Position numbers and translations under genes: made by a program. The notes beneath the pieces were generated by a model. That model did not search any database and was not told the DNA's origin. It was given only the letters and a program-made list of their open reading frames with translations. A DNA stretch of 64,000 nt from Taklimakanibacter albus (lineage in GTDB: Bacteria > Pseudomonadota > Alphaproteobacteria > Rhizobiales > Aestuariivirgaceae), in NCBI RefSeq assembly GCF_016595235.1, contig NZ_JAENHL010000007.1, positions 1,834,765 through 1,898,764 on the forward strand. Direction: 5' to 3'. This document shows positions 53,872 to 64,000 of this stretch, one piece after another (the first letter of the stretch is position 1; each line of letters opens with the position of its first letter).

Positions 53872-55197
53872 TCAGTTTGACGAAGGCCCCATCGCCTGCC
53901 GGCCGATGCTGTGATAGGCGAAAGGCGTCTTGGCGATGTCGGTCGGCGAGTAGAGATTGCGCAGGTCGATCATCACCGCCGCGCGCATCGACTTGGCGAG
54001 CTTGGCCAGATCGAGCCCTCTGAACTCGTTCCATTCCGTGAGCAGGATGACCGCATCGGCGCCTTTGGCGGCCGCATAGGCTGACTTCGCCCATTCCACG
54101 CCCTCAAAGGCTGACACACCATTGGGCTTCACCACCGGGTCATAGGCGACGACCTGAGCTTTCGCGGCGGTGAGCGCCGGAATGAGATCGAGCGCCGGCG
54201 CGTCGCGCATGTCGTCGGTATCCGCTTTGAAGGCAAGCCCCAGCACCGCGATGCGCTTGTCGGCGACCGAGCCGCCCAGCATGCGGGTGACGCGCGTCGA
54301 CAAATCCAGCTTGCGCTTGTCATTGGCCTTCACCACCGCCTCGATGAGGCTGAAGGGGGCGCCCGCCTCGCGCGCCGTGACGGCCAGCGCCTTGGTGTCC
54401 TTCGGGAAGCATGAGCCGCCGAATCCCGGCCCCGGCTGCAGATAGTGATGACCGATGCGCTTGTCATGGCCGATGCCCTTGGCCACCACCGCGATGTCGC
54501 CGCCCACTTCCTCGCACAGATCGGCGAGCTGGTTGATGAAGGCGAGCCGCATCGCCAGATAGCCGTTGGCGGCATATTTGATGAGCTCGGCCGATTCGAA
54601 GTCGGTGAAGATGAGCGGCGCGCCCGTCATGGCGATCGGCTGATAGATCTTGCGCAGGACTTCCTGCGCCCGTTTCTTTTCGGTACCGATGACGACGCGG
54701 TCGGGCTTCAGGAAGTCATCGACCGCCGAGCCTTCGCGCAAAAATTCCGGATTGGCGGCGACATCGAAATCGGCATCGGGCCGTTCCGCCGTGATCTGTG
54801 CCTTGATCTTGCGCGCCGTGCCGACCGGCACCGTGGATTTGGTGATGATGACACTGTAGCCGTCGAGCGCCGCGGCGATCTGGCTTGCCGCCTGATGCAC
54901 ATAAGCGAGATCGGCGGCGTCATCGCCGCGCCTGGTCGGGGTCGAGACCGCGATGAACACCGCCTCGGCCTTCGAGACGGCCGCTTTCAGATCCATGGTG
55001 AAATGGAGCCGGCCGGCCCGCGCATTGTCATGGATGAGCTTGCCGAGCCCCGCCTCGTGGATGGGAACGCGGCCGGCATTGAGCGCCTCGACCTTGGCCG
55101 CGTCATGATCGACGCAGAACACATCGAAGCCGAATTGCGCGAGACACGCGCCTGAGACCAGCCCGACATAACCGGCCCCGATAACAGCTATTTTCAT
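53872..55197 (-). CDS. ugd: UDP-glucose 6-dehydrogenase
   Basis: A 441-residue NAD-dependent enzyme making UDP-glucuronate for polysaccharide synthesis. IAVIGAGYVGLVSGACLAQFG is the N-terminal NAD fold, VSTPTRRGDDAADL and STVPVGTARKI are conserved loops, and FGGSCFPKDTKAL holds the catalytic Cys. GYVGL and the C-terminal FKADTDDMRDAPALDLI complete the family pattern. Converges with the PP2C gene, one base between the stops. Confidence 0.96.
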   Translation of the reverse strand: MKIAVIGAGYVGLVSGACLAQFGFDVFCVDHDAAKVEALNAGRVPIHEAGLGKLIHDNARAGRLHFTMDLKAAVSKAEAVFIAVSTPTRRGDDAADLAYVHQAASQIAAALDGYSVIITKSTVPVGTARKIKAQITAERPDADFDVAANPEFLREGSAVDDFLKPDRVVIGTEKKRAQEVLRKIYQPIAMTGAPLIFTDFESAELIKYAANGYLAMRLAFINQLADLCEEVGGDIAVVAKGIGHDKRIGHHYLQPGPGFGGSCFPKDTKALAVTAREAGAPFSLIEAVVKANDKRKLDLSTRVTRMLGGSVADKRIAVLGLAFKADTDDMRDAPALDLIPALTAAKAQVVAYDPVVKPNGVSAFEGVEWAKSAYAAAKGADAVILLTEWNEFRGLDLAKLAKSMRAAVMIDLRNLYSPTDIAKTPFAYHSIGRQAMGPSSN

Positions 55198-55230
55198 GAC
55201 GGCTGGCTCGCCCTTTTGAGAAGATCAATT

Positions 55231-55246
55231 GCGTTACATGTTACGC
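55231..55246. promoter_or_regulatory. Near-perfect 16-bp palindrome upstream of ugd
   Basis: GCGTTACATGTTACGC has 14 of 16 symmetric positions, 34-49 bases before the ugd start. It shares the ACATGT core with the palindrome at 1906-1915. Position is right for an operator; the regulator is unknown. Confidence 0.4.
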
Positions 55247-55273
55247 TAGAGGAGCTTAAGAAGCTCTGCAAGC

Positions 55274-56407
55274 TCACGCGCGGCCCTTCAAATCGGCCGC
55301 CGCCATGGCGTAACCACCGGCGGCGCCGTCGATGAAATGGAAATGATCCCGCGCGAACGGGTTGGGAACGAAGCAGGTCATCAGGGCCTGGTCCTGACGG
55401 TGCAGGCCATACCGGCAGAGCCCGGCCTGATAAGCCTGCTTGAGGCGCTCGATGAGGCGGGTGATGAGGGCGGGCTCGATATCCACGGTGAGCTTGAGAC
55501 CGTCGTCGAATTTGCGGAAGTCGGTGTTCTGCGCCACGTCGTTCTTATAGACCGCCGCGTCGAAGCGGCCGACCTTCAGGTTTCCTTGAAACACCAGCCA
55601 GCCGGCGAGGCTCTCGGCCAGGATATGAAGCTTGCGCAACAAGGGTGATCCGCGATGCGTGGCGAGCGTCTCATATTTGAGCCCCTTGGGCGGGAAGCCG
55701 AATTTGCGCGGCACCGGCAGGCCGGCCCGGTCCTCGCCATCGATGATGGCGACGATGTCGTCGACGAGCCGGGTGAAGTCCGCGCTGCGCTCCGCCGAGA
55801 CCGGGGTCACGATGAGGGAAATGATCTCGCCATTCTTCGCCGCGATCGGGTCCCAGCGGCAGGACAGGCCGGAGAGATCCGGGCGCGCCCCCGCGGCGGC
55901 GGCCGGCACGCGGTATTTGCCCGCTTTCATCTGTGCTTCCGCCCAACTGGCGCCACCGCCGGCAAACATCGCATAGGTGACTTCGGGGCTGGCGCGGAAC
56001 CGCGCCACCCGCACATCATGGCCGCCTGCCCGGATATCGCGCATCGGCACGATGGCGGCGCGCAGATCGAGATCGAGATCCTCCTTCACCCAGACTTGCG
56101 TGAGCGCCAGCGCCTCGCGCGTCTTGGGCAGAACACTTTCGGGCACCGCCAGGAGCGCGCCATCGCCGCCGAAGACGAACGGAACCTTATGCGCGCCGCC
56201 CAGCGCATTGAGCACCGCCGAGATCACGCTGGCGCCGGCCATGTTGACGGCCTTGTATTCGCCGCGCGCGATCGCCTGCGTCGAGCTCACGATGTCGGCG
56301 GTCGCCAGCGACCAGTCGTCCGGCAAGGGTTGATAATTCGCCGCATCGGCGACGCCGGAGAATTTCTCGAAAGTGGGCAGCGCCGCAAAGAAATCATCAT
56401 GAGTCAT
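55274..56407 (-). CDS. DUF3095 protein, class III cyclase-like fold
   Basis: A 377-residue protein of the DUF3095 family. About residues 30-115 resemble a class III nucleotide-cyclase domain: TADIVSSTQAIARGEYK (metal Asp-Ile motif) and FVFGGDGALLAVPES (GGDG-type metal Asp). The later part (RCGYG-like HRQDQALMTCF and FIDGAAGGYAMAA) is family-specific. Members have been labelled adenylate cyclase by similarity; catalytic activity is not established. No membrane helix or signal peptide. Single gene between ugd and the divergent glycosyltransferase. Confidence 0.8.
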   Translation of the reverse strand: MTHDDFFAALPTFEKFSGVADAANYQPLPDDWSLATADIVSSTQAIARGEYKAVNMAGASVISAVLNALGGAHKVPFVFGGDGALLAVPESVLPKTREALALTQVWVKEDLDLDLRAAIVPMRDIRAGGHDVRVARFRASPEVTYAMFAGGGASWAEAQMKAGKYRVPAAAAGARPDLSGLSCRWDPIAAKNGEIISLIVTPVSAERSADFTRLVDDIVAIIDGEDRAGLPVPRKFGFPPKGLKYETLATHRGSPLLRKLHILAESLAGWLVFQGNLKVGRFDAAVYKNDVAQNTDFRKFDDGLKLTVDIEPALITRLIERLKQAYQAGLCRYGLHRQDQALMTCFVPNPFARDHFHFIDGAAGGYAMAAADLKGRA

Positions 56408-56435
56408 GGCGAAAAGCTAGCATGCTGGGAGGACC

Positions 56436-57575
56436 TTGGCGACCGATCCCCGATTGACGCCCGGACGCGACATCGCCATAGGCAAAGGGGTGAGGATCGC
56501 CTTTTACGCCCCGCTCAAAGCGCCCGACCATCCGGTTCCCTCCGGGGACCGCCAGATGGCGCGGCTGCTCCTGCGGGCGTTGCATCTCGCCGGTTTCGCG
56601 GCCGATGTCGTGAGCACCTTGCGCGCCTTCACACCCGATCCCGAGCCGCAGGCCTTCGCGCCCGTGCGGCAGGCGGCCGATGACGAGAAGGCGCGGCTCA
56701 AGGCGCTTTGGCACGCCGGCGAAAAACCCGATCTGTGGTTCACCTATCATCCTTATTACAAGGCGCCCGATCTTCTGGGTCCCGATCTCGCGCGTCATCT
56801 CGCTATTCCCTATGTCACCGCCGAGGCCTCTTATGCGGGCAAACGCGATCGCCAGGGCTGGGCCGAACGCCAGGCGCTGATCCGCGACGCCATCGGCCTC
56901 GCCAGGCTCAATCTCTGTTTCACCGAGCGCGACCGCGCCGGGCTGGAGAAGGCGGTGCCGGGCGCCCGCCTGGCAGCCCTTCCGCCTTTCATCGATACGC
57001 AGGCTTTCGCCGATGGTTTCGCGAACACCCCGCCGGCGCGCCTGATGACGGTGGCGATGATGCGCAAGGGTGACAAATTCACGAGCTTCACCATGCTCGC
57101 AAGGGCGCTGCCCCTGCTCCTCGATCTGCCGTGGCGGCTCACCGTCATCGGTGATGGTCCCTTGCGCGCCGAGACGATGTCCCTCTTTGCCGGCATTCCG
57201 TCCGGGCGGCTCGACTGGCGCGGCGAGATAGCGCCCGAAAAAGTGCCCGCCGCTCTGGCCGACGGCGGTGTCTACGTCTGGCCGGGTTCGGGTGAAGCCT
57301 ATGGCATTGCCTATCTCGAGGCGCAGGCCGCCGGTCTGCCGGTGGTGGCGCAGGAGACGGCCGGCGTTCCCGCCGTGGTGCGCCATGGCGAGACCGGCAT
57401 CCTGACGCCGGAAGGTGATGTCGAAGCCTATGCATTGGCGATCCGCGCGCTTCTCACCGATGATGCCCGGCGTGCAACCTATGGCCGCGCCGCACGCGCA
57501 TTCGTGCTCGAGGAGCGTTCGCTGACCAACGCGGCGCAACGCCTCGCGGCCCTCCTCGATAAGGCGCGGGCATGA
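56436..57575 (+). CDS. Glycosyltransferase family 4
   Basis: A 379-residue GT-B fold enzyme. RIAFYAPLKAPDHPVPSGDRQMARLL is the acceptor-domain start, VIGDGPLR and the C-terminal nucleotide-sugar site VYVWPGSGEAYGIAYLEAQAAGLPVVAQETAGVPAVV with the EX7E pattern are GT4 hallmarks. The TTG at 56436 has GGGAGG at 4-5 bases and is my choice; an in-frame GTG at 56490 (AAAGGG upstream) is an alternative. Coupled to the next gene by ATGA. Acts on an unknown acceptor, perhaps with ugd products. Confidence 0.88.
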   Translation: MATDPRLTPGRDIAIGKGVRIAFYAPLKAPDHPVPSGDRQMARLLLRALHLAGFAADVVSTLRAFTPDPEPQAFAPVRQAADDEKARLKALWHAGEKPDLWFTYHPYYKAPDLLGPDLARHLAIPYVTAEASYAGKRDRQGWAERQALIRDAIGLARLNLCFTERDRAGLEKAVPGARLAALPPFIDTQAFADGFANTPPARLMTVAMMRKGDKFTSFTMLARALPLLLDLPWRLTVIGDGPLRAETMSLFAGIPSGRLDWRGEIAPEKVPAALADGGVYVWPGSGEAYGIAYLEAQAAGLPVVAQETAGVPAVVRHGETGILTPEGDVEAYALAIRALLTDDARRATYGRAARAFVLEERSLTNAAQRLAALLDKARA

Positions 57576-58339
57576 CTCTCTGGCAGCCGCTCCAGGACGA
57601 GTTGGCGCAGTGGCGCGATGCCGGCCGCAGCGCGTCGCTGTGGCTGCGCGACGACGACGCCATCGCACCGACGCCGGCGCTCGACCGGCTCGCCGATCTC
57701 GCGCGCGGCCATGACGTGCCGGTGGCGCTGGCGATCATTCCGGCCCGCACCGGCCCTGATTTGGCGAGCCGTCTCGCGGCGGAGACGATCATCCACCCGG
57801 TCATCCACGGCTGGTCGCATGCCAATCACGCGCCGGCGCCGGAGAAGAAGCAGGAGCTTGGGCCGCATCGCCCGCGCGCCACCTTGTTGGGCGAGCTGGC
57901 CAACGGCCTGGCGCGTCTGCGCGCGCTCTATGGCGACAGGCTGACGCCGATGCTGGTGCCGCCCTGGAATCGCATCGATCCCTCCTTGCTCGACGATCTG
58001 CCGGAAACCGGCTTCACCGGCCTGTCGGCCTTCGGCCACAAGCTCGCCTCGCGGCCGGGCCTCGCCGTCATCAACACCCATATCGACATCGTCGATTCGC
58101 GCGCCGGCAATCGCTGCCGCGATCACGGCATGCTGATCGCGGGGCTTGTTCAGGAACTGCAGGAAGCGCGCGCCGTGGGCGGCAGCAGGCCGGTCGGCGT
58201 GCTCAGCCACCATCTGGTCAGCGATGACGACGCCTTCCGCTTCCTCGCCGATCTGTTCGCGCTCGCGGCGCAGAGCGGCACAGTCAATTGGAAAAGTCCT
58301 GCTGATCTGCTTCAGAGTGTTGCGCCCAGAAGCATTTGA
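57572..58339 (+). CDS. Polysaccharide deacetylase-like (CE4 fold) protein
   Basis: A 255-residue protein with the divergent CE4 signature: LWLRDDDAIA (Asp pair), IHGWSHANH with the two metal His, and LVPPWNRIDP as the later substrate motif. No signal peptide, so a cytoplasmic deacetylase or a non-enzymatic relative is suggested. Overlap with the glycosyltransferase implies a joint role in modifying a glycan or lipid-linked sugar. Confidence 0.78.
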   Translation: MTLWQPLQDELAQWRDAGRSASLWLRDDDAIAPTPALDRLADLARGHDVPVALAIIPARTGPDLASRLAAETIIHPVIHGWSHANHAPAPEKKQELGPHRPRATLLGELANGLARLRALYGDRLTPMLVPPWNRIDPSLLDDLPETGFTGLSAFGHKLASRPGLAVINTHIDIVDSRAGNRCRDHGMLIAGLVQELQEARAVGGSRPVGVLSHHLVSDDDAFRFLADLFALAAQSGTVNWKSPADLLQSVAPRSI

Positions 58340-58366
58340 TCAGCAAGGCGAAGAATATTCCCTCCC

Positions 58367-58478
58367 CCCTCATGCTGAGGTGGCCGCGAAGCGGCCCTCG
58401 AAGCATCCCTCAGGATAGAATGGGGTTGCGGAGAGTGACCCTTCGAGGCTCGCTGCGCTCGCACCTCAGGGTGAGGAT
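58367..58478. repeat. Long intergenic inverted repeat
   Basis: Outer arms CCCTCATGCTGAGGT (58367-58381) and ACCTCAGGGTGAGG (58463-58476), middle arms CCTCGAAG/CTTCGAGG (58396-58403, 58441-58448), and a small hairpin GGCCGCGAAGCGGCC (58382-58396). This CTGAGGTGGCCGC...CTTCGAGG pattern is a dispersed element in rhizobial genomes. It lies between converging genes and fills most of the 159-base gap. Confidence 0.7.
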
Positions 58479-58498
58479 GATAGGTCGGTGCAAACTGA

Positions 58499-59332
58499 TC
58501 AGAGCTTGATCACCAATCCCTGGCTGGCCACGACGGCGCCGGGGAAAGCTTCCTTCGCCTCGACGCCGATCCTGTCCAGCTCATCGTCGTTGCGCAAAGG
58601 CGAATGATGGAAGATGGCGAGCTGCTTGGCCTTGGCCGCCTTGCACAGGCGCACACCTTCTTCCCAGCTCGAATGCCCGAAGCCGCGATAGCGCGGCATC
58701 TCATGATCGGTGAAGGCCGCGTCATAGATGACGAGATCGGCATGATCGATGAGCTTCATCACATTCTGATCGGGCTTGCCCGGCACATGCTCGGTGTCGG
58801 TGATATAGCAGGCGGACTTGCCCGCGAATTCGACGCGGTAGCCGACCGCGGCATTGGGATGATTGAGGCTCGCGGTGCGCAGCACGATGCCCGCATGGGG
58901 TTTCAGCACATCGCCCGGCTTGAAGTCCTTGTAGTCGACATCGGCGATGAAAATTTCCGGCGCGATCGGGAAGTAGGGCGCCTTCATGATGCCGGAGATC
59001 ATTTCATGCGTTGTCATCACGCCGGCGAGATGGCCCGACCAGATACGGATCTTGTTGCTGCCGCGATAGAACGGCATGAAGAAGGGAATGCCGAAGATAT
59101 GATCCCAATGGCAGTGCGAGAAGAACATGTCGAGACGCTCGACGCCTTCGCGCTCGAGCTCCTGGCCGGCGCGCTTGAGGCCTGACCCGGCGTCGAACAT
59201 CAGAACATGCTCGCCGCAGCGCATCTCGACGCAGGACGAATCACCGCCATAGCGCGAGACTTCCGGTCCCGACACCGGAATGCTGCCTCTGGAGCCCCAG
59301 AATTTTACTGTGAATTCACTCTTTTCTTTCAA
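58499..59332 (-). CDS. MBL-fold hydrolase at the end of the cyclase operon
   Basis: A 277-residue metallo-beta-lactamase-fold protein of the PhnP/RNase Z-like branch. WGSRGSIPVSGPEVSRYGGDSSCVE opens it, FSHCHWDHIFGIPFF is the HxHxDH metal motif, and HPNAAVGYRVEFAGKSACYITDTEH plus DHEMPRYRGFGHSSWEEGV hold further metal ligands. The start is TTG at 59332 with GAGGG about ten bases upstream; 38 bases separate it from the cyclase gene. In this operon a cyclic-nucleotide phosphodiesterase activity is an attractive guess but not shown by the sequence. Confidence 0.85.
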   Translation of the reverse strand: MKEKSEFTVKFWGSRGSIPVSGPEVSRYGGDSSCVEMRCGEHVLMFDAGSGLKRAGQELEREGVERLDMFFSHCHWDHIFGIPFFMPFYRGSNKIRIWSGHLAGVMTTHEMISGIMKAPYFPIAPEIFIADVDYKDFKPGDVLKPHAGIVLRTASLNHPNAAVGYRVEFAGKSACYITDTEHVPGKPDQNVMKLIDHADLVIYDAAFTDHEMPRYRGFGHSSWEEGVRLCKAAKAKQLAIFHHSPLRNDDELDRIGVEAKEAFPGAVVASQGLVIKL

Positions 59333-59370
59333 CGACTTGAACCCTCGCTCAGGCCTTATCGTAGCAGGTT

Positions 59371-61065
59371 CTACGGCTTAGGCGACTCTAAAGCGGGCAA
59401 TTGCGTCGCCCGCTTCACCATGATCACATCGAGCGCCCCGGCCCTCCCCCTGATCTCGATGCTCTGGGTCTCGAGCCCGGCGAATTCCGCTTCCGCCTTG
59501 TCAAGGACCGCCCGCGAAATGATGGCTTGCATGTTGAGCTCCTTGCAGGCGCCCTCCAGCCGGCTCGCCGTATTTACCGTGTCGCCGAGCGCGGTGACGC
59601 CCAGCGCCGCCGAGCCTTTGCCGGCCGCCCCGATACGGCCGAGAATGGCCGTCCCCGAATGAAGCCCGATCCCCATTTCGAGCATGCCGCGCATTTCGTC
59701 ATGCAGGCTTTGATTGAGAGCATCGAGCACACCGCCCATGGCGCGCACCGCGCCCAGCGCTTCCCGGGCCCCGGCTTTGCCGCTCTTGTCCATGCCGAAG
59801 ATCGCCATGATCCCGTCCCCCATGAATTTGTCGACATAGCCCCCGGTATCGATGATGACTTCGCTCATGCGGCCCAGATACTGGTTGAGAAGGAAAACGA
59901 CGTCATAGGAGAGACGTTGCTGCGACAATCTGGTGAAGCCCCTGAGGTCGCAGAACATGACGGTGACCTCCTGCTCCACGCCCCAGAAATATTTATCGAC
60001 GAGTCCATTCACTGTATCGGCCGTCACCGCCGGCAGAAGTGTCGTGATGGTGAGGTCGGTCTCCGGCCGGAATTGGCAGGCGAGACGGACATTGGCGGGG
60101 GCGCCCACCCGTTTCAGCACCTTCTGCTCATTGGCATCGGCCGGGGGCTGATCCGCCGGTCCTTCGATCACGCGGATCCGGCAGGTGGAGCAGCGGGCAC
60201 GTCCGCCACAGACCGAGGCATGCGGTATGTTGTTGAGGCGGCTGATTTCGAGGATGGAAAGACCGCGGCGCGCCGACACGCGTTGCCCGCCCGTATAGGT
60301 GATGGCGATCGTGTGCCGGTAGCGGTCGAGCAATCCGAGGCCAAGGCGCGCCGCCACGATCAAAGCGAGCAATCCCAGATAGCCGTAGAATTCATAGTCG
60401 AGCAGCCCATGCAGGAAGTCGAACTGCTCCTGGCTCATCGGCGGCTGGAAATCCGTCTCATAACGGATGGCGCGCCCGGCCGAGGTGAAGCCGGCAAAAC
60501 CAAGCGTCGGAATCAACGTCGCGAGCACCACCCAAAGCCACTTCAGGCGGCGGTACCAGGGCTTGAATTCCAGCCAGTGATGCAGGCCGATGAGCCCATG
60601 TACCCAGACCAGCGTCATCAGCGACGCCTGCCGCCAGGCCTCGGCCGGCCACATGGCCCACAATGCATAAAAGTAATTGTCATCGACACCGGCATAGATA
60701 TGGGCGCCGCGGGTCGCGGTGACATGGCGGATCAGCAGAAGCGGGATGAGCAGGCCGAAACCGAGTTGCACCCATTCATGCGTGCTGATCTTCAGGCTGC
60801 GGCGCCGGATGAACACCACGATCCCGAGCACGAAGTGGACGAGGAACGAGGTGAGCAGGATGGCCGTGCCGGGAACGCTGCGGGTGACGGCGATGCGCCA
60901 TGAGCGCACCTCCTCCATCGTGTCGATCGACACGAGGCCGACGGCGTGATTGAGGAAATGCGTCGCCGCGAAGGCGAACAGCACAAGCCCCGTCGCCAGC
61001 CGCAGCTGGCGCAGTGTTATACGGAGGGCGGGCCTGTACCGCACGGCAGAATCGGGAGCGGTCAT
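59371..61065 (-). CDS. Membrane-bound class III adenylate/guanylate cyclase with 2Fe-2S ferredoxin domain
   Basis: A 564-residue three-part protein. Residues ~20-245 hold six hydrophobic segments with conserved His (H36, H40, H77, H114, H156, H162/163), like a succinate-dehydrogenase-type diheme b anchor. Residues ~255-345 form a plant-type ferredoxin domain with CGGRARCSTC (C286, C292, C295) and C330. Residues ~365-550 form a class III cyclase: FCDLRGFTRLS (D373), KFMGDGIMAIFG (D417) and LGDTVNTASRLEG. The fusion implies cAMP (or cGMP) output responding to heme or iron-sulfur redox state; a heme-containing CyaC is known in Sinorhizobium. AGGAGG ribosome-binding site; 18 bases after the cNMP-binding gene. 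Confidence 0.9.
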   Translation of the reverse strand: MTAPDSAVRYRPALRITLRQLRLATGLVLFAFAATHFLNHAVGLVSIDTMEEVRSWRIAVTRSVPGTAILLTSFLVHFVLGIVVFIRRRSLKISTHEWVQLGFGLLIPLLLIRHVTATRGAHIYAGVDDNYFYALWAMWPAEAWRQASLMTLVWVHGLIGLHHWLEFKPWYRRLKWLWVVLATLIPTLGFAGFTSAGRAIRYETDFQPPMSQEQFDFLHGLLDYEFYGYLGLLALIVAARLGLGLLDRYRHTIAITYTGGQRVSARRGLSILEISRLNNIPHASVCGGRARCSTCRIRVIEGPADQPPADANEQKVLKRVGAPANVRLACQFRPETDLTITTLLPAVTADTVNGLVDKYFWGVEQEVTVMFCDLRGFTRLSQQRLSYDVVFLLNQYLGRMSEVIIDTGGYVDKFMGDGIMAIFGMDKSGKAGAREALGAVRAMGGVLDALNQSLHDEMRGMLEMGIGLHSGTAILGRIGAAGKGSAALGVTALGDTVNTASRLEGACKELNMQAIISRAVLDKAEAEFAGLETQSIEIRGRAGALDVIMVKRATQLPALESPKP

Positions 61066-61083
61066 CCCGAGCCTCCTGACGCG

Positions 61084-61548
61084 TTAATTTGCCTTTCGCC
61101 GGAGATCGCTGCGCGCTTCGCTGAGCTCGGCGGTCGTGTGGCTCAGGCGATCGGCGAGCACCCGCATGATCTCGACGGCCATTTCCGGAAACTCCGCCAG
61201 CAATCTGAGGAAATGATCCTTGCGGATGCGCAGCGTCTCGAGCGGCGCATTGGCTTTGACGGTTGCGGTGCGCGAAACATCGCAAAGAATGGCGATCTCA
61301 CCGACGATCGAATTGGGCTCGAGTGTCGCCACCTTGATCTCGCCGCTTTGCGAATTGACCAGCACATCGGCCGAGCCCGACAACACCACATAGGCGGCAT
61401 CACCCGGGTCGCCTTGCTTGAACAGCGTCTGGCCCTGGTCGAAGTTGACGCGATCCGACGTGAAGGCCAGAAGCTTGAGCTTGGCCGGCGCGACATTCGA
61501 GAAGAGCGGCACGCGCCGCAACAGCTCCACTTCATCCTTGAGCTGCAT
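61084..61548 (-). CDS. Stand-alone cyclic-nucleotide-binding domain protein
   Basis: A 154-residue protein made of one CAP-type cyclic-nucleotide-binding domain. VNFDQGQTLFKQGDPGDAAYVVLSGSADVLV is the beta barrel, and IVGEIAILCDVSRTATVKA (about 81-99) the phosphate-binding cassette with Glu84 and Arg93 present. LETLRIRKDHFLRLLAEFPEMA follows. There is no helix-turn-helix; the last ~30 residues are a helix suited to protein contact. It should act as a cAMP sensor that relays to a partner, such as the neighbouring ABC-like protein. Lies between that gene and the cyclase. Confidence 0.9.
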   Translation of the reverse strand: MQLKDEVELLRRVPLFSNVAPAKLKLLAFTSDRVNFDQGQTLFKQGDPGDAAYVVLSGSADVLVNSQSGEIKVATLEPNSIVGEIAILCDVSRTATVKANAPLETLRIRKDHFLRLLAEFPEMAVEIMRVLADRLSHTTAELSEARSDLRRKAN

Positions 61549-61580
61549 GTCTCATCACTCCCATTTCCACTCCATCCATA

Positions 61581-64000
61581 TTACGACGCCAGAAGCCCGG
61601 CGAATACGCCCTTTCGAGCCATCAACTGGTCGTAATTCCCATCCTCGACCGCAGTTCCGCGGTCGAGCACCACCACCCGATCGAACAGCCGGGCGAGATT
61701 TGGATTGCTCAGCACCCAGATGACCGCCGGCTTGCGCCCGTCGCGCGCCGCCTCGCCCAGCACCGAGCGCACCAGCTGCTCCTGGGTGCGCTGCTCGACC
61801 GAGGATAACGCCTTGTTGAGAATGATGAAATCGCCGCGCTTGAGCAAAGCGCGGGCGACATGCAGCTTCTGGCGCTGCACCGAGGTGAGGCGGCGGCCAC
61901 CGACGCCCACATTGAACTCCAACCCGACCCTCACCACATCTCTGCTGACATCGAGATCGTCGAGAACCGAGCGCACGATGGCGCGAATGCGGTCTGCGGC
62001 GTCGGCATGGCGATGGCCAATGCGACCGAACAGCACATTATCGAGGATGCTGGCGGACTTGTTGTAGCCTTCGGCATCGTAAGGCTCGATCGCCCCCTTG
62101 AGGCTCTCCGGCAGATTGTCATGGAAGGCGGCGCGCGCCGCCACGATGCGATCCATCATCTCCTGGTCGAGAAGGCCGAAACGATAGCGCGGCTCGACAT
62201 AGGAGAAGGCGAGTTTCATCATTCGCTTGCTGTCGGCCTCGGCGACTTGCGCGAAGGGCTTGTCCTGCAGCCTTTGCAGCAGCGCCTGGTAATCGGGGAT
62301 CTCGTCCGCCGTCATGAAACCCAGTTGCTGGAAGAACGGGTGGTCGGGCGGCAGGTCGCGGAACAGCTCGACGGCGTTGCGGGCGATCTCGACGCCCATC
62401 CGGTAGAGCGCCTCATCGAGCCCCGCTTGCGCCAGCACCGAGCGGAAATAGGCATTCGACGCCAGATTCACATTCGAAAGCTCCGACCCCATCGGCGTGC
62501 CGAACAGCAGATTCTCGGCGACCGTCGCCTCGGCATTGTAGAGCGCCGCATCAAAGGAGGTGACGAGGCTCGCCAGGTTCTCTTCCTCGAGCCGTGTCCG
62601 GAGCGCCTTGCGCGCCGCCACGATATGCTCGGGGATTGCCGGATGGACTTTCTCGTCGACGGATGCCCTGAGGCCCAGATCGAAAACATCGTCCGAGAAT
62701 TGTACGGCCTCGAGCGTCTGCTCCATGGCCGTGAACAGCTCGTCCGGCCCGTCGACGCCGATCGTCGCATAGTCGATCCAGTCGCCATGCAGATCGTGAT
62801 CGGGATTGCCGGCATTGAGTGCTTCTGCCTTTTCCCAATCGCGATGCGCCAGCGCCGCGCCCTCATAAACACGCTCGCGCACCGGATAATGCTTCAGCAC
62901 ATAGGTCAGATTGTCGTAGATGGTGCCTTGGAACAGGAAAGCGTCGCCCGAGGCATAGGCGGTGCGCCGCCCGGTGAGCGCTTCCGGAAGAAAAAGCAGA
63001 TCCTCGCCATTGATGCTGACGCGGCCCTGTTCCGGCCACACCAGACGCACCAGCGTATCGGCGAGCGCCTCGCTGCCGCCGCCTGCCGTGCCGATGACGG
63101 CGACGCTTTCGCCGGGCCGCATGTCGAGCGTGATGTTCTCGAGGAGCCTGGCGCCGCTGTCGTCGCTGGCCGAGAAGTTGACGACGGAGATCGGCGTCTT
63201 GATCGGCGCCACCGGGCCGCTCGTCACGTCCTGTATGGCCGGCTCGATGATCTGGTCGACATGGAACTGCTCATAGACCTGGGCATATTTGACCTGAACG
63301 TCGATGCGCTGCTGGTCCCAATCGATCAGGTCCTTGATCGGCGACGGCAGGTCCTTATAGGCCGAGATCACCGCGATGAGCTGACCGATGTCGAGCTGTC
63401 CGCGCAGCGCCAGATAGCCGCCGATCGCGTAGAACAGGAACGGCGTGACCTGGGCCAGGAAGTTGTTGAGGAACTTGACGAAGAATTTCCACTGATAGAG
63501 GTCGTAGCGGATCTTGAAGATGCGCCCCAGCCGGTCGGCGACATCGGCGCGCTCGTAGTTCGACGTGTCGTGGACATGGATCGAGGAAATGCCGTCGACG
63601 ATCTCGCCGACGCGGCCGGCGAGCTGGCGCGCGGTAAGCTGACGCTCCTTGCCGAGCCGGATGAGGCGGCGGCGCATCTTCGGGATGACGACGCCCTGGA
63701 TGCCCACCATGAAGGCGGCGAGAAGGCCCAGCCAGACATTCTGCAGAAGGATGAAGAACAGCGCGGTCGCCGCCTGGAGGCCGAGAAAGGCCGGCTGCAC
63801 GAAAGCATCGCCGATGAAGCCGCCGAGCGGCTCGACCTCGTCCTTCACCATGGTGGCGACTTCGGCCGCCTTCACGCGCTTGAAGACATTGGGCGGAAAG
63901 CGCAGCACGCGGTCGATGAGCTGGAAGCGCAGGCGGCGCAGCATGCGTTCGCCGAGCCGGCCCTTGAAGGTGTTGATATAGAGCTTGAACAGGCCGTTGA
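61581..64000 (-). CDS. Degenerate ABC-exporter-like protein with long repeat insertion, partial
   Basis: About 805 codons; the N-terminus lies beyond the right edge. An ABC-exporter membrane domain is followed by an ABC-type domain in which every nucleotide motif is altered: Walker A reads GTAGGGSEA (no Lys; 63063-63092), the signature LTSVQRQK (61863-61889), Walker B FIILNKALSS (Asn, Lys; 61801-61830), and the switch His is Ser (SNPN near 61700). Between Walker A and the signature sits ~350 residues instead of ~100, with three copies of an xLF.xTIxENLxFG-like element: FQGTIYDNLTYV, EATVAENLLFG, SASILDNVLFG. It is probably not an ATPase. First visible gene of the operon with the cNMP-binding protein 32 bases on. 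Confidence 0.85.
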   Translation of the reverse strand, partial: NGLFKLYINTFKGRLGERMLRRLRFQLIDRVLRFPPNVFKRVKAAEVATMVKDEVEPLGGFIGDAFVQPAFLGLQAATALFFILLQNVWLGLLAAFMVGIQGVVIPKMRRRLIRLGKERQLTARQLAGRVGEIVDGISSIHVHDTSNYERADVADRLGRIFKIRYDLYQWKFFVKFLNNFLAQVTPFLFYAIGGYLALRGQLDIGQLIAVISAYKDLPSPIKDLIDWDQQRIDVQVKYAQVYEQFHVDQIIEPAIQDVTSGPVAPIKTPISVVNFSASDDSGARLLENITLDMRPGESVAVIGTAGGGSEALADTLVRLVWPEQGRVSINGEDLLFLPEALTGRRTAYASGDAFLFQGTIYDNLTYVLKHYPVRERVYEGAALAHRDWEKAEALNAGNPDHDLHGDWIDYATIGVDGPDELFTAMEQTLEAVQFSDDVFDLGLRASVDEKVHPAIPEHIVAARKALRTRLEEENLASLVTSFDAALYNAEATVAENLLFGTPMGSELSNVNLASNAYFRSVLAQAGLDEALYRMGVEIARNAVELFRDLPPDHPFFQQLGFMTADEIPDYQALLQRLQDKPFAQVAEADSKRMMKLAFSYVEPRYRFGLLDQEMMDRIVAARAAFHDNLPESLKGAIEPYDAEGYNKSASILDNVLFGRIGHRHADAADRIRAIVRSVLDDLDVSRDVVRVGLEFNVGVGGRRLTSVQRQKLHVARALLKRGDFIILNKALSSVEQRTQEQLVRSVLGEAARDGRKPAVIWVLSNPNLARLFDRVVVLDRGTAVEDGNYDQLMARKGVFAGLLAS

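Follow-up and report, generated by a model that had tools for sequence, protein, structure and literature searches.

In the genome of the alphaproteobacterium Taklimakanibacter albus we analysed a stretch of 64,000 nucleotides (C7:1834765-1898764 of the assembly, hereafter the window), whose right edge holds a gene for a protein that resembles an ATP-binding cassette (ABC) exporter but has lost its ATPase motifs. Binding and hydrolysing ATP is what defines ABC transporters. In this protein the altered residues are under purifying selection, a part of the ABC fold is present in two extra copies, and the adjacent gene encodes a cyclic-nucleotide-binding (CNB) protein that accompanies nearly all relatives. 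The reading that we prefer, tentatively and without counting it as probable, is that of a cyclic-nucleotide-regulated flippase, gate or receptor of a glycan locus, in which the dead nucleotide-binding domain (NBD) would relay a signal from the CNB protein instead of ATP turnover.

An ABC exporter fold with altered ATPase motifs

The open frame of the gene stops at 61581 and leaves the window at its right edge, so that the part inside (61581..64000, minus strand, as for all features of this gene given below) encodes residues 105-909, residue 104 being cut by the edge. The earlier note on this DNA had proposed extending the sequence to the right to reach the N-terminus, and in the assembly this yielded a complete gene of 909 amino acids (aa), which reaches the equivalent of position 64310 (L001:4346-7075, equivalent to window 61581-64310). 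The Pfam domain ABC_membrane (PF00664) matches residues 91-316 with 70.1 bits against a cut-off of 28; the transmembrane domain and linker occupy 63201..64000 (the in-window part, up to residue 370). ABC_tran (PF00005) scores 39.3 bits against a cut-off of 25, with a match confined to residues 390-490.

The motif losses that had been noticed in the window all hold in the complete protein. Its Walker A region reads GTAGGGSEA (residues 407-415; 63066..63092), with Ser413 for the Lys and Glu414 for the Ser/Thr, and GTAGGGSE does not fit the pattern GxxxxGK[ST]. The signature is LTSVQ (residues 808-812) instead of LSGGQ, the GG being gone, within RRLTSVQRQ (806-814; 61869..61895). Walker B is FIILNKA (828-834; 61809..61829), with Asn832 for the Asp and Lys833 for the catalytic Glu, and the switch region is IWVLSNP (864-870; 61701..61721), with Ser868 for the His. 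The most conserved part of the protein is the membrane domain, since 61 of the 78 invariant columns in a 22-sequence alignment fall within residues 1-350, which favours an actual function in the membrane over simple anchoring.

Catalytic motifs lost relative to sister clades are what one would expect of a decaying pseudogene. However, the open frame is full-length, like replacements occur throughout 50 homologues (see below), and the ratio of nonsynonymous to synonymous substitution rates (dN/dS) over the whole gene is 0.08-0.18 in six pairs of four genes, and 0.08-0.17 between the window gene and its three near relatives. Constraint is tightest in the degenerate C-terminal lobe: residues 798-909, with the altered signature, Walker B and switch, have a dN/dS of 0.00-0.06, the lowest of any region in every pair. 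Such purifying selection contradicts decay, and we rejected the pseudogene explanation, whose chance of being right is practically nil; here, where it had argued against a pseudogene, the earlier note is borne out by the selection and by the conservation of the replacements among homologues.

A plus-strand open frame runs antisense to the gene (window 61860-63998; 836 aa in L001) and is taken as a by-product of the high guanine-plus-cytosine content at third codon positions (84%).

Catalytic residues across the family

We compared 187 homologues, no two identical, whose open frames measure at least 837 aa; all are alphaproteobacterial, and near copies are included. Two of them (L036 and L041) are truncated at contig ends, and L064 and L067 were excluded as too short. 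In an automatic alignment, 77 homologues have K at the position of the Walker A Lys, 50 have R and 60 some other residue; the Ser/Thr position has E in 89 and D in 60, with S in eight and T in six. At the Walker B Asp position we counted 27 D and 111 N, and at the catalytic Glu position 71 E and 40 R; the switch His is present in 41. Lys, Ser/Thr, Asp and Glu occur together in four homologues and all five catalytic residues in a single one (L192), with near-complete motifs in L192, L071 and L176, while many members of the sister clades retain Lys, Glu or His. According to the earlier note, homologues with intact motifs would make the window protein a decayed copy. Such homologues, complete or partial, do exist, but the lost state is common to 50 homologues and kept by selection, and therefore a decayed copy does not follow.

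In the clade of the window protein the losses have consistent replacements. Among 49 scored rows, chosen jointly by locus and residues, position 413 is A in 33, G in 12, S in two and T in two; position 414 is E in 38, D in 10 and G in one; position 832 is N in 46, H in two and Q in one; and position 833 is R in 39, K in seven, Q in two and N in one. None has His at 868 (S in 24, T in eight, A in seven, G in six, E in two, M in one, and one gap). Over all 187 homologues, a basic residue at 833 is found in 46 of the 60 rows that have neither Lys nor Arg at 413, versus one of the 127 that have either; as this is in essence one event on the tree, it does not independently prove coupling.

The main tree comprised 181 rows with the catalytic columns removed, and was obtained by a quick LG+G4 search with Shimodaira-Hasegawa-like approximate likelihood ratio test (SH-aLRT) support, a midpoint root and no outgroup; six long or odd rows were omitted (L047, L100, L102-L104 and L204), and of these, four likewise have neither Lys nor Arg. 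In this tree 50 of the 56 rows without Lys or Arg are set apart by a single branch (SH-aLRT 99), the other six lying elsewhere, and the window clade was later redefined as those 56 rows minus L094, L151, L180, L186, L188 and L191. The loss of the Walker A Lys/Arg in the clade thus looks like one event, after which the new residues were conserved, and the clade has probably arisen from relatives that had the catalytic residues, as far as a tree without an outgroup root indicates. An independent-pairs test gave no support for coupling among positions 413, 414, 832 and 833. An ion pair between E414 and R/K833 might fill the empty ATP site.

One may also consider that the pocket, although altered, still binds ATP but does not hydrolyse it, and that the energy of binding drives a slow cycle of the protein. 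Sister clades combine Lys, or the Arg that stands in for it, with an acid where Ser/Thr would be, so that the family evidently tolerates odd pockets. However, members of the window clade lack both Lys and Arg, their Ser/Thr site is mostly acidic and their catalytic Glu site mostly basic, which makes this explanation quite unlikely; the window-clade protein would instead neither bind nor hydrolyse ATP. A family that loses its ATPase stepwise (near-intact, Lys-to-Arg, fully lost) would be a natural series for studying what NBDs do besides burning ATP.

Linkage to a cyclic-nucleotide-binding protein

The neighbouring gene (61084..61548, minus strand) encodes a stand-alone protein of 154 aa that is essentially a single CNB domain (Pfam cNMP_binding, PF00027, 1.6e-21). 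Its phosphate-binding-cassette-like segment, GEIAILCDVSRTA, contains the Glu and Arg of the cassette, and a loose pattern of the cassette fits 176 of 193 CNB matches, redundant copies counted. It may bind cyclic AMP or cyclic GMP. Among the 187 homologues, 159 have the CNB domain in the gene that directly follows on the same strand and 14 have it fused to their C-terminus; in one it is located elsewhere, in 11 it was not found, and in two the contig leaves no room for it. It is therefore next to or fused with the ABC protein in 173 of 187, and in the window clade in all 48 with room, which agrees with the earlier note in tying the two proteins together. Fusion in some homologues means that the ABC and CNB parts can act as one chain. 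The 11 homologues without a CNB domain are L100 and L102-L104, the most divergent rows; L176, L190 and L193, which keep Lys, Glu and His; and L197-L199 and L206.

A segment of the ABC fold in three copies

An inserted region of about 320 residues (476-797; 61920..62885), delimited by sequence matches and structure prediction, separates the Q-loop from the signature. The figure of about 350 residues given in the earlier note approximates the whole stretch from Walker A to the signature but is too long for the inserted part. Three TIxxNLxxG-type elements are found, at residues 463-471, 594-604 and 752-762, each in one of three repeat units recognised with hhalign: unit A, on the Q-loop side, with TIYDNLTYV (residues 440-548; 62667..62993); unit B, with EATVAENLLFG (549-648; 62367..62666); and unit C, with SASILDNVLFG, which runs into the signature (700-797; 61920..62213). 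Comparing family profiles of 42 sequences, with C taken as 700-810, gave hhalign scores of 95 for B-C (E-value 8e-18), 44 for A-B and 42 for A-C. Twenty column shuffles each reached at most 16 for B-C and 15 for A-B, and unrelated membrane windows, the sole control for A-C, at most 22. Since the scores are above these controls, the repeat is more than chance.

The repeats also resemble the corresponding part of ordinary ABC ATPases. Of 18 such genes fetched from the same genome, 10 were recognised and six gave usable segments, three of which look importer-type rather than exporter. Their post-Q-loop segment matched A, B and C with scores of 45, 28 and 32, in alignments spanning 31-42 columns, against at most 14 for shuffles. 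Judging from these profile comparisons, the protein carries three versions of the segment that surrounds TIxxNLxxG, i.e. two extra copies of a part of the ABC fold, which upholds the suggestion in the earlier note that part of the fold was copied. In ABC exporters the coupling helices sit near the segment that is triplicated here. In a whole-protein AlphaFold2 model each of these elements coincides with a helix that leads into a short strand, and residues 440-806 alone (367 residues) are predicted as a confident unit, with a predicted local distance difference test (pLDDT) score of 88 and a predicted template modelling (pTM) score of 0.81. A search of the insert for known domains gave no sequence-profile match in the PDB (E-value limit 0.01), and the fold of the insert region had no Foldseek match at an E-value of 0.001 or below in the PDB or BFVD.

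The proposed role and its alternatives

The whole-protein model (mean pLDDT 84, pTM 0.77) places the protein among ABC exporters: the top 50 Foldseek rows are all exporters or their relatives, e.g. P-glycoprotein, PCAT1, MsbA and TmrAB, with an E-value of 6e-19 against P-glycoprotein and target template modelling (TM) scores of about 0.5-0.64 against half-transporters. As for its surroundings, we surveyed 39 loci with long flanks, whose unequal length makes absences weak evidence. Two GT28-like and one GT4-like glycosyltransferases (GT28a, GT28b and GT4) are each present in 27 of these loci, and a group 1 (GT4-like) glycosyltransferase, encoded in the window at 56436..57575 (plus strand), is present in 29. 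The ABC-CNB unit is thus usually found within a glycosyltransferase locus.

In ABC exporters, ATP-driven closure of the two NBDs is coupled to the membrane domain via coupling helices. If the ATP site is gone and the membrane domain still moves, some other input must set the state of the NBD. In the role that we tentatively propose, an ABC-exporter-type membrane protein, probably homodimeric, would have an NBD that has ceased to hydrolyse ATP and probably also to bind it; the membrane domain would act as flippase, gate or receptor for the glycan made by the neighbouring glycosyltransferases, with a glycan intermediate as the putative ligand; and the CNB protein, on binding cyclic nucleotide, would dock on the enlarged pseudo-NBD and set the state of the ABC protein, so as to bring about transport or gating. 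A more specific version, in which the ATP site is shut by a charge swap (an acid at the Walker A Ser/Thr, a base at the catalytic Glu) and the separate CNB subunit drives the NBD from the triplicated helical segment, would make this a cyclic-nucleotide-gated ABC protein for the flipping of envelope glycans; we consider that version doubtful. A widespread family of transporter bodies tied to a CNB protein would indicate a glycan pathway under cyclic-nucleotide control.

Several observations weigh against the proposed role or limit what can be concluded from it. Some CNB-linked relatives retain Lys and Glu, so that across the family the CNB protein is not simply a substitute for ATP. The changes at 413, 414, 832 and 833 lie on one branch and so do not amount to repeated co-evolution that would reveal coupling. 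A tree of the membrane domain, whose outgroup did not form a group of its own, places together 48 of the 50 lost-clade members (support 87) and leaves L031 and L040 outside. The structural model is weak (pLDDT below 50) at residues 182-199 and 310-322, and superposition on PDB entries is loose, with query-length TM-scores of at most 0.41 and root-mean-square deviations of at least 14 Å among the matches listed. In nine of the 39 loci, none of the four glycosyltransferases is within the fetched stretch. Lastly, without ATP there is no apparent energy source for uphill export, and a non-transporting role is therefore possible.

Such a role would be that of a scaffold or receptor, in which the ABC fold regulates glycan synthesis and holds the glycosyltransferases, together with the CNB protein, at the membrane. 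It would account for the absence of the ATPase residues, for the glycosyltransferases that adjoin the ABC gene in most of the 39 loci, and for the two extra copies of a segment that in ABC exporters lies near the coupling helices and would offer docking sites. On the other hand, the membrane part is conserved beyond what an anchor would need, and the near-complete ATPase motifs of L192, L071 and L176 suggest ancestral transport. The scaffold is on the whole unlikely, although it ranks close behind the flippase, gate or receptor that we prefer. The earlier note had spoken of a sensor or scaffold; as the membrane domain is the most conserved part, translocation or gating is at least as likely.

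Comparison with known exporters

MsbA-like type IV exporters (MsbA, P-glycoprotein, TmrAB and PCAT1) share the membrane domain and NBD fold with the 909-aa protein and are its best sequence and Foldseek matches, the NCBIfam and PDB matches to MsbA and P-glycoprotein falling mainly in two blocks, below about residue 490 and above about residue 750. In contrast to them, it lacks the catalytic motifs and has the insert of about 320 residues with its two extra post-Q-loop copies, and its score against the MsbA equivalog model TIGR02203 (178.9 bits) is below the cut-off of 602.

MsbA2 of S. meliloti, a polysaccharide exporter, is similar in gene setting. Its gene (SMb21191) is described as an ABC-exporter gene among glycosyltransferases on pSymB (PMC3687685, PMC12239276), i.e. 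it too adjoins glycosyltransferases. We rejected it as the same protein: its 600-aa frame, located via operon position, matches the query over only about 100 residues, and in S. meliloti 1021 the homologue of the family is elsewhere on pSymB (841723-844381). This pSymB copy (NC_003078.1 841723-844381; L131 and L132) is broken across two reading frames; strains GR4 and RCAM1750 have it as a single frame, and several other S. meliloti records match in two pieces.

Of the described proteins that we met in the literature searched, HetC of Nostoc comes nearest in combining an ABC exporter with a CNB domain. HetC is reported to be a peptidase-containing ABC exporter with an N-terminal CNB domain that is required for function and binds guanosine tetraphosphate (ppGpp) in vitro; it needs an ATPase residue and carries a C39 peptidase (PMC10986499). 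Both systems join an ABC exporter fold to a CNB domain, whereas in the present family the CNB domain is separate or C-terminal and ATPase residues are lost. Pfam searches of the 909-aa protein found neither an N-terminal CNB domain nor a C39 peptidase domain.

Catalytic residues are also lost in the NBDs of exporters with one degenerate site, which a review describes as common, e.g. TAP (ABCB2/B3), CFTR (ABCC7) and Pdr5 (PMC7756269), and of which TM287/288 is another case. The window protein could accordingly pair, as the degenerate subunit of a heterodimeric exporter, with a catalytic subunit from another part of the genome; the genome contains at least 150 ABC_tran matches. However, the known degenerate sites are said in the same review to still bind ATP (PMC7756269), whereas the 909-aa protein has no Walker A Lys, and no partner half-transporter gene was seen alongside it. 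Reading the frames of window 55000-64000 and L001 3800-16000 by eye, we saw no second exporter, only importer-type ABC genes, and the Rhizobium etli and S. meliloti records agree, the rest of the genome not having been searched for a partner. The other ABC genes in L001 resemble a peptide-type importer, both by eye and by annotated synteny. A heterodimer is, all in all, improbable.

Other genes of the locus

Between the glycosyltransferase and CNB genes, the window encodes a polysaccharide-deacetylase-like protein (57572..58339, plus strand; Pfam match under the cut-off; in 20 of the 39 loci), a metallo-beta-lactamase-fold protein (58499..59332, minus strand; in 14) and a class III nucleotidyl cyclase with a 2Fe-2S ferredoxin domain and a hydrophobic N-terminal region (59371..61065, minus strand; Pfam Guanylate_cyc and Fer2). 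This cyclase may supply the cyclic nucleotide. The fetched stretches of 15 loci contain a class III cyclase domain, and of five of these checked against Pfam four were over the cut-off and one just below; nine of the 15 loci belong to Aureimonas or Mangrovicella and three to the window's near kin, so that these are not 15 independent cases. Among the 39 loci the ferredoxin-bearing form is seen only in the Taklimakanibacter-like L001-L003, where it is possibly a redox-responsive cyclase.

Elsewhere in the window, positions 55274-56407 encode a DUF3095 protein (E-value 6e-129), present in five of the 39 loci; the L001 stretch stops short of its gene. Its segments ADIVSST and GGDG look like those of a class III cyclase; it has no PDB match, and we found no paper on it in the open literature searched. 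Beyond the window, at L001 11039-15943, genes resembling a peptide-type ABC importer (an ATPase, a solute-binding protein and two permeases) lie ahead of the glycosyltransferases. R. etli and S. meliloti retain the order importer, glycosyltransferases, ABC, CNB, and there the importer genes are annotated.

Distribution of the family

Of 60 related genomes, 28 encode relatives of the whole protein (E-value of 1e-60 or below), and such relatives also occur at 19 loci in genome contigs; their genera include Taklimakanibacter, Allorhizobium, Rhizobium, Aureimonas, Mangrovicella and Lichenifustis, as well as a bin named Asaia. With a profile (A2) that covers the insert region, residues 440-806, we obtained matches in 131 of 385 genomes sampled from the class, 122 of which are represented in the set of 187 homologues; G183, G255, G269, G351, G410, G426 and G437 were left out of the set on account of partial or split matches, G269 having an in-frame stop. 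In a phylum-wide sample the same profile matched 31 of 398 genomes, all within the window's own order or class. Most genomes have one copy, the first survey having scored just part of the candidates. Plasmids also carry the family, with matches in 264 plasmid records (E-value of 1e-40 or below), mostly Rhizobium and Sinorhizobium replicons; annotated members among the plasmid records listed bear generic ABC transporter names only. Open-access literature searches, as far as titles and the openings of abstracts go, returned no description of the family, by which we do not claim its absence from print.

Two unusual arrangements were observed. At L107 6347-10504 the homologue lies inside an open frame of 1386 aa, with about 480 residues ahead of the usual start that have no Pfam match; this N-terminal extension may be untranslated. 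In one bacterial family (f49) each genome has one to three divergent copies (L105, L106, L211, L212 and further places in G213), and in all four copies examined the CNB domain is fused at the C-terminus.

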